The notes beneath the pieces were generated by a model. That model ran no database searches, had not been told where the DNA came from, and was given only the letters and a program-made list of their open reading frames with translations. Of a DNA stretch of 49,880 nt, positions 19,331 through 22,818 are shown in pieces. Within the stretch, counting starts at the first letter, position 1. Each line of letters opens with the position of its first letter. This DNA is from Bacillota bacterium. GTDB lineage: Bacteria; Bacillota; UBA4882; UBA10575. A program made the translations under genes and the position numbers. The stretch covers positions 1 to 49,880 of the forward strand of contig JAKOVI010000060.1 in assembly GCA_029782135.1 (NCBI GenBank), read 5' to 3'.

Positions 19331-19359
19331 TTGTCCCTGATCAATGAGCGTGTTATAAT
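19331..19359 (+). promoter_or_regulatory. Promoter of the peptide/nickel-type transporter leader
   Basis: TTGTCC (19331-19336), 17-base spacer, perfect TATAAT (19354-19359). Transcription should start near 19366 or a few bases earlier, at the 5' edge of the folded leader. Confidence 0.8.
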
Positions 19360-19361
19360 TA

Positions 19362-19502
19362 GGGCAGATATAAGGCTGGTATCCGGCGAATGAACCAGAC
19401 CTACGAAATAATATATTTGTCCCAACCTGTTCGGAACCTGATGGTCCGAAAGCGGGTTAATTGTGTCATGTAGGGAGAGAGCCTTCGCCGGAAGGCTTTT
19501 TC
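19362..19502 (+). promoter_or_regulatory. Structured leader with antiterminator/terminator logic (candidate riboswitch, class unassigned)
   Basis: Pairings read by eye. P1: 19362-19372 with 19412-19423, 11 bp, one bulged U. P2 inside it: 19374-19380 with 19394-19401, bulged A, 13-base loop. P3: 19424-19435 with 19445-19458, 12 bp with a 2-base bulge. A possible pseudoknot: 19400-19405 with 19469-19474. An intrinsic terminator lies at 19480-19501. The P2 loop bases 19382-19390 (TCCGGCGAA) are the exact reverse complement of 19484-19492 in the terminator hairpin, so the two states exclude each other. The first gene's ribosome site comes ten bases later. No sequence core of a riboswitch class I know is present. 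Confidence 0.65.
19480..19501 (+). terminator. Leader terminator before the transporter operon
   Basis: AGCCTTC / GAAGGCT 7-bp stem with a GCCG tetraloop, then TTTTT. It lies between a strong promoter and the first gene, so it should act as an attenuator rather than an end-of-operon signal. Confidence 0.85.
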
Positions 19503-19525
19503 TGTTTTCTAAGGAGGGAAAAGCG

Positions 19526-21055
19526 GTGAAAAGAAGGTTTTCCCCTTATTATCTGTTATTCTTGGTTGGAATCATCCTGATTGCGGCGGTCTTTCTGAAG
19601 GGAGGAAAGGAGGAGCGGGAAAATAAAGTGGTTGTGGTTGTTCCCCAGGATCCCGACTACTTGGATCCACATTTGGCAGCCGCCGCCGGGACCTATGAAA
19701 TGATGTTCAATGTCTATGAAGGGCTGTTGAAACCGGCTCCGGACGGCTCTCTTCTGCCGGCCCTTGCCGAACGGTACAGCGTGTCGGAGGATGGACTTAC
19801 TTACACTTTTTCTTTACGTCCGGGCGTAAAGTTTCATAACGGGAAGCCGGTCACGGCTGCAGATGTCAAATACTCACTGGAACGTTTGATGGGGACGGCG
19901 ACCGGACAGCCGCTTTCCCCGTTCTTCACTAAGGTCCAGGCAGTTGAGACGGCCGGGACTCCCGGGGCCCAAAAGGTTATCCTAAGGCTGAAAGCCCCTG
20001 ATGCCGCCCTCCTGAGTAACCTGACGACCGCAATGATCATTCCTGAGGATTATCAAGAGCTGAATACCAGGCCGGTCGGGACCGGACCGTTCCGCTTTGT
20101 TGAATACCGGCCCGGGCAGTGGGTCGTGTTGGAGAAGTTCGCCGATTATTGGCAGGAGGGGCTGCCTTTACTGGATAAAGTGGAGTTCCGGATCATCCCG
20201 GACCGCGAGGCAGCGCTCATTGCCTTGAAAAACGGAACAGTCGATATCTATCCGCGAATTGAGCCGGGCCGGATTACGGAGTTGAGCGAGGAATTCTATA
20301 CTCTTCAAGAAAAACAGAATCTGGTACAGGTCCTGGCACTGAACCTTAAACGGGCGCCGTTTAACGATCTACGGGTCCGGCAAGCAATCAACTATGCGAT
20401 TGACAAGGATGAACTGATTGAACTGGCGGCCTTTGGCTTTGGGACCAAACTCGGTTCCGGCTTTAGCCCGGCGATGGTTGAATTTTACGAAACCGGGCTC
20501 GAGGATCTTTATCCGCACAATATTGAGAAAGCCAGGCAATTATTGGCGGAAGCCGGCTATCCGCAGGGATTCCGCGCGGTCTTGTCCGTCCCGTCCAATT
20601 ATGCTTTTCATGTCGATACGGCCCAAATCATCGTCGAGCAATTAAAAAAGGTTGGGATTGAGGCCGGGATTGAACTGGTCGAGTGGGCGGTCTGGTTGCA
20701 ACGGATTTACCAGGGACGGGATTATGAGATGACGATTACCGGCCTCTCCGGAAAACTTGATCCCCTCCCGGTCTTGATCAGATACACTTCGGATTATGCC
20801 AATAACTTCTTCAATTACGAAAATGCCGAGTATGACCGGTTGAACCAGCTGGCGGCGGCCGAAAGTGACCGGGGAAAACGGGCTGTTCTTTACAAAAAGG
20901 CCCAGCGGCTCCTGGCGGAAGAGGCGGCGGCGGTCTTTCTCATGGACCCACATTATTTGGTGGCCTTGAAAAAGACAATTGCCGGCTACCGGCTCTATCC
21001 GATCTACGTTCAGGACATGTCAACCGTCTACCTTACTAATCGCGGCACACGGTGA
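19526..21055 (+). CDS. Family 5 extracellular solute-binding protein (Dpp/Opp/Nik type)
   Basis: A 509-residue peptide/nickel-class binding protein. N-terminal hydrophobic segment at about 8-24 without a lipobox Cys, then the SBP_bac_5 pattern (YLDPHLAAA, VYEGLL, LRPGVKFHNGKPVTAADVKYSLER, VGTGPFRF, NLKRAPFNDLRVRQAI). It would deliver an oligopeptide, metal chelate or similar ligand to the two permeases that follow. GTG 19526 is set by AAGGAGGG (19511-19518) seven bases upstream; the open frame extends back through the terminator but that part is leader. Substrate cannot be named from sequence. Confidence 0.92.
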   Translation: MKRRFSPYYLLFLVGIILIAAVFLKGGKEERENKVVVVVPQDPDYLDPHLAAAAGTYEMMFNVYEGLLKPAPDGSLLPALAERYSVSEDGLTYTFSLRPGVKFHNGKPVTAADVKYSLERLMGTATGQPLSPFFTKVQAVETAGTPGAQKVILRLKAPDAALLSNLTTAMIIPEDYQELNTRPVGTGPFRFVEYRPGQWVVLEKFADYWQEGLPLLDKVEFRIIPDREAALIALKNGTVDIYPRIEPGRITELSEEFYTLQEKQNLVQVLALNLKRAPFNDLRVRQAINYAIDKDELIELAAFGFGTKLGSGFSPAMVEFYETGLEDLYPHNIEKARQLLAEAGYPQGFRAVLSVPSNYAFHVDTAQIIVEQLKKVGIEAGIELVEWAVWLQRIYQGRDYEMTITGLSGKLDPLPVLIRYTSDYANNFFNYENAEYDRLNQLAAAESDRGKRAVLYKKAQRLLAEEAAAVFLMDPHYLVALKKTIAGYRLYPIYVQDMSTVYLTNRGTR

Positions 21056-21060
21056 GCAAG

Positions 21061-22005
21061 ATGAGTACAGTCCAAGGGAGAATCGTTACATTCCTGCTGA
21101 CGCTGTGGTTGGTATCCCTCCTCACCTTTGTGGTCTTTCAAGTGATCCCCGGCAATCCGGCGCAGGTCATTCTGGGCGCCGACGCCTTGCCGGAGCAAGT
21201 GGCGGCCCTGGAAAAGGAGTTGGGTTTGGATCAACCGTTACCCCAGCGCTATTTGCACTGGGTGGGTGGTGTCTTGCGGGGAGAATTCGGCCACTCCCTC
21301 CGCTACCGCCAACCGGTCCGGGGCCTTATGGTTGCCAGTCTGAAGGTAACGCTGCCGGTCGCGGGGCTGGCTTTCGTCTTTATTGTGCTGTTGGGGATCC
21401 CCCTTGGGCTGACCGTCGGGAAGTACCATCTGCAAAAACGGGGGGTTATGTTCTCGGTGGTCACGCAACTCGGGACCGCCGTTCCTTCTTTTTGGATGGG
21501 GATCTTGATGATGCTCGCCTTTGCCAAACTGTTCCGTTTTTTTACCCCAGGTGCATTTGTCCCCTGGGAGGAGGACTGGTTGGCGGCGCTGGCCTCTTTA
21601 ATCCCTCCCGCGCTGGCGGTTGCCCTGCCGAAAGTAGCTGTTCTGACGCGCTATGTCAGTACCGCCTATGTCGAGGAGAAACAAGCCGAATATATCCGGA
21701 CCGCCTACGGGAAAGGCTTAGCGGAAAAGGAGGTGCTTTATACGCACCTTCTCAAAAACATCCTCATCCCGGTTGTGACGGTCCTTGGCTTGATGACCGG
21801 CGATATTTTAGGCGGGAGCATCATCGTGGAAAAGGTCTTTGCCCTTCCGGGGATCGGCCGGTTGTTGGTTGAAGCGATCAGTTTCCGGGATTTCCCGTTA
21901 ATTCAAGGCATTACGCTTTATCTGGCCGGCGTGGTCGTCTTCCTCAATCTACTGGTTGACTTTTTATACCGCATGTTTGATCCGAGGATCCGTTGGAGTA
22001 GGTGA
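21061..22005 (+). CDS. ABC transporter permease, DppB type
   Basis: A 314-residue binding-protein-dependent permease with about six transmembrane segments. The N-terminus (IVTFLLTLWLVSLLTFVVFQVIPGNPA) and the EAA loop region (YIRTAYGKGL) are typical of DppB/OppB/NikB. ATG 21061 with GGTGAG upstream is preferred; GTG 21052 overlaps the previous stop and is an alternative. Forms a heteromeric channel with the next gene product. Confidence 0.92.
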   Translation: MSTVQGRIVTFLLTLWLVSLLTFVVFQVIPGNPAQVILGADALPEQVAALEKELGLDQPLPQRYLHWVGGVLRGEFGHSLRYRQPVRGLMVASLKVTLPVAGLAFVFIVLLGIPLGLTVGKYHLQKRGVMFSVVTQLGTAVPSFWMGILMMLAFAKLFRFFTPGAFVPWEEDWLAALASLIPPALAVALPKVAVLTRYVSTAYVEEKQAEYIRTAYGKGLAEKEVLYTHLLKNILIPVVTVLGLMTGDILGGSIIVEKVFALPGIGRLLVEAISFRDFPLIQGITLYLAGVVVFLNLLVDFLYRMFDPRIRWSR

Positions 22006-22008
22006 GCG

Positions 22009-22818
22009 ATGAAAACAAAAGTCAGTCTCAGTCTGGTGATCGGTGCTGCGCTCGTGGGATGCTTCCTGCTCATGCTGGTGGTCAGTTTTTTTTATACCCC
22101 GTTTGCGGTCAATGAGATGCGGAGTGCGGAGCGGTTTCTCCCTCCCGGCAGACCGTATCTTTTAGGGACGGACAATTTTGGCCGGGATATCTTCAGCCGG
22201 ATCATGAAAGGGACCCAGACCGCCTTTTTCGTTGGTACGCTCTCCGTGTTGTTCGGGATGGCACTCGGGATCAGTCTGGGGGCGCTCGGCGGTTACTTCG
22301 GCGGGTGGACGGACCGCATCCTGACGCAGCTTGGTACAACCATTCAGGCCTTTCCCGGCGTGTTGTTTGCTTTAATGATCGTGGCGGTTTGGGGGCCGGG
22401 GACTTTCAATACGATTGTGGCCTTGAGTATTACCGCGTTTCCCGGGTTTATGCGCATCACCCGGAGTGGATTTATACAGATCAAAGAGTACAGTTTTGTT
22501 GAAGCGGCGCAGACAATTGGGGTCAGTCCGCTCAAGATCATGCTCCGGCATATTCTACCCAATCTTCTCCCTTCGCTTCTGGTGGCTGCTTCCAACGGGT
22601 TTGCCGGGGCTTTATTGGCGGAGGCGGGTTTGAGCTACTTGGGGTTGGGAGTCCAACCACCCGAACCGAGTTGGGGCCGGATGTTAAATGAAGCCCAGGG
22701 CTATCTGCTGCGGGCACCGTGGTACAGCCTTGCTCCCGGGATTGTGCTTGTTTTGGCGGTATTGGGGTTTAACCTGCTCAGCGATGGCCTCCGGGATTTG
22801 CTGGACCCAAAACAGTAG
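22009..22818 (+). CDS. ABC transporter permease, DppC type
   Basis: A 269-residue permease with an N-terminal membrane segment, the LLGTDNFGRDIFSRI box that marks DppC/OppC, and the EAA loop (FVEAAQTIGVSPLKIMLRHILPN). It starts three bases after the upstream stop. Two ATPase genes (DppD/DppF) usually follow but are absent here, so the pump must borrow ATPases encoded elsewhere or be incomplete. Confidence 0.92.
   Translation: MKTKVSLSLVIGAALVGCFLLMLVVSFFYTPFAVNEMRSAERFLPPGRPYLLGTDNFGRDIFSRIMKGTQTAFFVGTLSVLFGMALGISLGALGGYFGGWTDRILTQLGTTIQAFPGVLFALMIVAVWGPGTFNTIVALSITAFPGFMRITRSGFIQIKEYSFVEAAQTIGVSPLKIMLRHILPNLLPSLLVAASNGFAGALLAEAGLSYLGLGVQPPEPSWGRMLNEAQGYLLRAPWYSLAPGIVLVLAVLGFNLLSDGLRDLLDPKQ

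Follow-up and report, generated by a model that had tools for sequence, protein, structure and literature searches.

The importer operon and its leader

The window, by which we mean the whole 49,880-nucleotide stretch of Bacillota DNA analysed here (contig JAKOVI010000060.1), carries on its forward strand a gene for a family 5 solute-binding protein and two genes for Opp/Dpp/Nik-type permeases, preceded by a leader that contains a promoter, two tandem hairpins, an intrinsic terminator, and a ribosome site (Table 1). The start of the binding-protein gene, a GTG codon, was picked from the Shine-Dalgarno site and from orthologues, and a TATAAT element like that of the promoter is also found upstream of the orthologous leaders. 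The whole leader has a predicted folding energy of -51.7 kcal/mol (z = -3.9), better than 200 of 200 shuffled sequences; with the terminator left out, z is -2.5. The sequence, and the comparison of the fold with 200 shuffles, thus bear out a preliminary description of this DNA, which had placed a promoter, an intrinsic terminator, a ribosome site, and a compact structured leader here. That description had also given three helices of 11, 7, and 12 bp; this holds approximately, but the exact lengths are 3+5+2 bp, about 4+6+2 bp, and, for the terminator, 13 bp.

Table 1. Features of the leader and operon (coordinates are those of the window)
Feature	Coordinates	Strand	Basis
Sigma-70-type promoter, TTGTCC-17-TATAAT, TG before -10 (extended)	19331..19359	+	10/12 consensus matches
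pan hairpin 1, 3+5+2 bp, bulged A's 19381 and 19399	19373..19402	+	RF01749 match; stem invariant in four leaders
Predicted antiterminator helix A, 5' strand, top of hairpin 1, TCCGGCGAA	19382..19390	+	
Predicted antiterminator helix B, 5' strand, overlapping 3' foot of hairpin 1	19400..19405	+	
pan hairpin 2, ~4+6+2 bp, bulged A's 19436 and 19450	19424..19458	+	RF01749 match, fold
Predicted antiterminator helix B, 3' strand	19469..19474	+	
Intrinsic terminator hairpin, 13-pair stem, U-rich tail	19474..19503	+	
Predicted antiterminator helix A, 3' strand, terminator apex, TTCGCCGGA	19484..19492	+	
Shine-Dalgarno AAGGAGGG	19511..19518	+	sequence
Solute-binding protein, family 5 (SBP_bac_5)	19526..21055	+	Pfam PF00496, 317 bits
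Opp/Dpp/Nik-type permease 1 (BPD_transp_1)	21052..22005	+	
Opp/Dpp/Nik-type permease 2 (BPD_transp_1)	22009..22818	+	

Importers of the Dpp/Nik type mostly carry peptides, nickel, or glutathione. The operon shares with the DppA, NikA, GsiB, and AppA systems the combination of an SBP_bac_5 binding protein and paired BPD_transp_1 permeases, and the solved binding proteins nearest to that of the window are AgaA, Lmo0135, 8upi, and YliB. The operon differs from those systems in two respects: its products score below every cut-off of the substrate-specific NCBIfam models, and it contains no ATPase gene. The second respect had been noted from the sequence of the window, and it extends beyond it: no ABC ATPase gene adjoins the operon in the window or in six related genomes; by contrast, at two orthologous Paenibacillus loci that were checked two ATPase genes lie directly downstream. 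A Paucisalibacillus record that holds a homologue of the binding-protein gene also holds a c-di-GMP-I riboswitch (L102:103-187, 62.1 bits).

Assignment of the leader to the pan family

The preliminary description recognised no known riboswitch core in the leader and left its class unassigned. A scan of the window with the Rfam covariance models, the search by which novelty was to be judged, yields no known riboswitch at gathering thresholds; at relaxed thresholds it yields the pan motif, RF01749, at 19373-19455, with a score of 26.9 bits, below the gathering score of 36.2 bits for this family, and an E value of 0.0082 against all families. The alignment spans the full model, positions 1-92, and includes both tandem hairpins. 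Across the 2.4-Mb genome, the leader is the sole pan match at E values up to 0.05 (E = 0.017). The other relaxed matches in the scan, to mir-515, GHRLOS, and ZFAT-AS1_3, were taken as chance.

The decisive evidence comes from orthologous leaders: the counterparts that precede this gene in two further genera of the family score 44.1 bits (G006) and 47.3 bits (G005), both over the gathering score. Because these leaders exceed the cut-off, we conclude from sequence comparison that the leader is a divergent member of the known pan RNA family, and not a new class; the claim of novelty does not survive. Weinberg et al. described the pan motif in 2010: each stem bears two bulged A's that are highly conserved, the stems usually occur as tandem copies, and the RNAs precede panB, panC, or the gene for aspartate decarboxylase (PMC2864571). 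The window leader resembles this description in its tandem hairpins, in the two bulged A's of each hairpin, and in its 5' leader position, and it differs in scoring below the cut-off and in preceding an ABC importer, not panB, panC, or panD. All four bulged A's are invariant across the four intact leaders (those of the window genome G000 and of G001, G005, and G006); the base pairs of the hairpins show zero variation among these leaders, and hence provide no covariation support. Orthologues in Paenibacillus, Cohnella, and Geobacillus, approximately 57-61% identical, have no pan match over the cut-off. Our literature search for a pan or pantothenate riboswitch ligand found no assigned ligand.

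Alternative pairing in the leader

The nine bases at the top of hairpin 1 are, as the preliminary description had stated, the exact reverse complement of nine bases at the terminator apex. Among trials with shuffled loops, 0.026% yield a match of nine bases, and when the upstream part of the window sequence was shuffled 300 times, pairing to the terminator apex as strong as that observed arose once. For transcripts that extend up to the terminator apex, all four intact leaders are predicted to fold into an antiterminator, with hairpin 1 unfolded and hairpin 2 enclosed by helices A and B. After transcription of the terminator's 3' arm, the predicted balance moves toward the terminator, to differing degrees: in full-length leaders, the expected number of helix A pairs, of about 9, is 0.01 for the window, 0.57 for G006, 1.92 for G005, and 4.32 for G001, in which the shift is incomplete. 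In G005, a G-C pair of helix A is replaced by A-U, with both sides changed, and in helix B one pair is changed on both sides among the four leaders. Measured against shuffles, this covariation is weak (57 of 500) with four sequences only, and no slid register equals it.

The on/off alternative pairing proposed in the preliminary description is therefore plausible, with a mutually exclusive terminator and antiterminator predicted in four leaders, and the folding models predict that the pan leader acts by transcription attenuation through these two structures. Complementarity between the hairpin 1 loop and the terminator was considered as a general feature of pan RNAs and was rejected: the mean complementarity is 3.67 nt, versus 3.47 nt for swapped loops, in a test set of which the four matching leaders formed part, and no leader but these attains 8-9 nt. 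Across pan loci overall, the terminator arm favours the hairpin 2 region over hairpin 1 (2.82 pairs, versus 1.88 when swapped). The predicted use of the hairpin 1 loop in an antiterminator distinguishes the leaders of this lineage from the other pan loci tested, and we regard the predicted hairpin-1-loop antiterminator as a lineage-specific expression platform that is new as far as our sources show.

Departures from this arrangement occur within the family. In genus g2, the leader of G007 retains the helix A match and that of G011 a weaker one, and hairpin 1 has drifted in both. At a locus in G012 (L073, G012:C129), the leader upstream of the binding-protein gene retains the promoter and terminator and has lost both pan hairpins, a natural loss of the sensor.

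pan loci, vitamin B5 genes, and a model for the operon

A census of the phylum, in which the stretch downstream of each RNA was scored, comprises 164 pan loci, most of them over the cut-off and a few weaker. A terminator-like hairpin follows the pan RNA at 132 of the 164 loci, versus 1 of 164 for mononucleotide shuffles. Downstream of 139 loci lies panB, panC, or panD, and in seven of these 139 a PanS-type carrier comes first and panC next. The remaining 25, with none of the three genes nearby, mostly have genes for salvage or uptake of vitamin B5: an ECF S-component at 13, several of which adjoin CoaX, BioY-like, or BirA genes; an OPT transporter at five, accompanied in two cases by type II pantothenate kinase; PanF and its DUF997 partner at two; and a binding protein of the window type at two (G005 and G006). 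Two further loci have an amidohydrolase, and at one nothing is recognised. Representative products score over the cut-off for PanF (TIGR02119, 647 bits) and type II PanK (NF009842, 271 bits); the PanS homologue scores 300 on NF047939, for which the cut-off is 400, and the representative ECF S-component is confirmed only as PF12822, so that its identity as PanT is inferred. In G005, pan RNAs precede both PanF and the window-type importer. Because pan precedes several unrelated salvage and uptake systems, the census argues, at the level of gene neighbourhoods, that pan reads B5/CoA status generally.

Among 16 genomes of the family, all of them drafts, which limits the reading of absences, seven have the importer, three have panBCD, and six have neither. 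The three panBCD genomes (G003, G004, G008) have panB, panC, and panD and lack the importer, and two of the three have weak pan-like matches at panB. Conversely, panB, panC, and panD were not found in the draft genomes that bear the importer (G000, G001, G005, G006, G007, G011, and G012). This mutual exclusion is not significant taken alone (Fisher test, approximately 0.15 over the 16 genomes). From its gene content, the window bacterium appears unable to make vitamin B5. CoaX is found in G000, G001, G005, and G006, and pantothenate could thus be used in these organisms once imported. A sodium/solute symporter of G000, 28% identical to the PanF of G005, may provide a second B5 uptake route; a PanT-like query found no match in the relatives, in a set that held no positive control. 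In genus g2, neither CoaX nor panB, panC, or panD was found in the three draft genomes (G002, G007, G011), and hairpin 1 has decayed in the two that have the importer; this genus may depend on a different CoA precursor or a different kinase.

We propose, with a probability of roughly 70%, that the leader is a pan attenuator of an ABC importer that takes up pantothenate or some other CoA precursor. According to this proposal, at high B5/CoA status an effector would occupy the pan domain and hold hairpin 1 folded, the loop and 3' foot of hairpin 1 would be unavailable to the antiterminator, and the terminator would form, turning the importer off; at low effector levels, hairpin 1 would open, the antiterminator would form, and the importer would be made. 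The direction of control, with termination in the presence of effector, is inferred from the mutual exclusion of hairpin 1 and the antiterminator together with the feedback logic of vitamin genes. On this view the importer would carry pantothenate or a closely related derivative, and another locus would supply the ATPase. Two observations, pan control and the absence of panBCD, are what suggest a role in B5 transport. The guess in the preliminary description that the ligand is related to the imported compound remains plausible; given the association with pan, it can be narrowed to vitamin B5/CoA metabolism. We hold tentatively, as slightly more apt to be wrong than right, the more far-reaching reading that the operon represents an undescribed class of Dpp-type importer for B5 or a CoA precursor and that pan is a true B5/CoA-metabolite riboswitch, with a Bacillota regulon that spans synthesis and several unrelated uptake systems and with the hairpin-1-loop antiterminator in the importer lineage.

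The same target and logic would result if pan were a protein-binding attenuator, with a dimeric B5/CoA-sensing protein clamping both hairpins and setting the terminator. The discoverers of pan suggested a motif that binds a dimeric protein, since the structure is simple and tandem (PMC2864571), and each hairpin is small, with little space for a ligand pocket; on the other hand, the literature searched offers no candidate RNA-binding protein, and pan precedes unrelated enzymes and carriers, though either kind of sensor would permit that. We judge a protein sensor unlikely. Less probable still is that the leader is a pan attenuator of an importer whose substrate, a peptide, a beta-alanine source, or a metal, is only loosely linked to B5. 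Consistent with a loose link, the importer scores on peptide, nickel, and glutathione models, all below cut-offs; the orthologues in Paenibacillus, Cohnella, and Geobacillus lack pan over the cut-off; and the six family genomes with neither panBCD nor the importer imply that another B5 route must exist there. However, nearly all other genes under pan control serve B5/CoA synthesis, salvage, or vitamin-type uptake, and with panB, panC, and panD all undetected in the importer genomes, beta-alanine would not help. A fortuitous resemblance to pan, in a leader that would be a structured attenuator of some unrelated kind as first proposed, is very improbable, since, although the window copy falls below the gathering threshold, two orthologous leaders lie above it, the bulged A's are kept in both hairpins, and the host genomes look like B5 auxotrophs.

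Attenuation of a B5 or CoA-precursor importer by pan thus remains our preferred reading, and it bears on two gaps in the literature: a CoA riboswitch was listed in a 2022 review as notably missing (PMC9971707), and many B5 auxotrophs are unexplained by known transporters (PMC6593275). PanF, PanT (of ECF type), and PanS are known bacterial carriers linked to B5 (PMC6593275, PMC12570885). Just as one precedes the window importer, pan RNAs of the phylum lie upstream of genes for PanF, for a PanS homologue, and for ECF S-components; the window importer, a candidate B5 carrier, is an ABC system of the Opp/Dpp/Nik type, a superfamily to which none of the three belongs. As far as our sources show, a Dpp-type ABC importer is new as a pan target, and hence a candidate carrier of B5 or a CoA precursor. 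With its short length and its complete pair of terminator and predicted antiterminator, the leader is a practical system in which to look for the pan effector, and the census supplies new candidate carriers of B5 or pantetheine, namely the Dpp-type system of the window and the OPT transporter beside type II pantothenate kinase.

Several other pan loci deserve mention. The five OPT loci (L054, G022:C1; L061, G024:C200; L036; L041; L042) point to a candidate carrier, for B5 or pantetheine, from a superfamily other than that of the window importer. At L062, L227, L245, and L299, pan heads an apparent operon that encodes a BioY-like protein, an ECF S-component, and CoaX. At L055 (G030:C110:69692-69787), a pan RNA scoring 54.5 bits is followed by just a 78-aa open reading frame that belongs to no family, and no pan-related gene is recognised there. 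At L065 (G069:C88) and L243 (G109:C36), pan precedes the amidohydrolase gene, with a BirA-like gene near both and CoaX near L065, and the enzyme possibly frees a B5 precursor.
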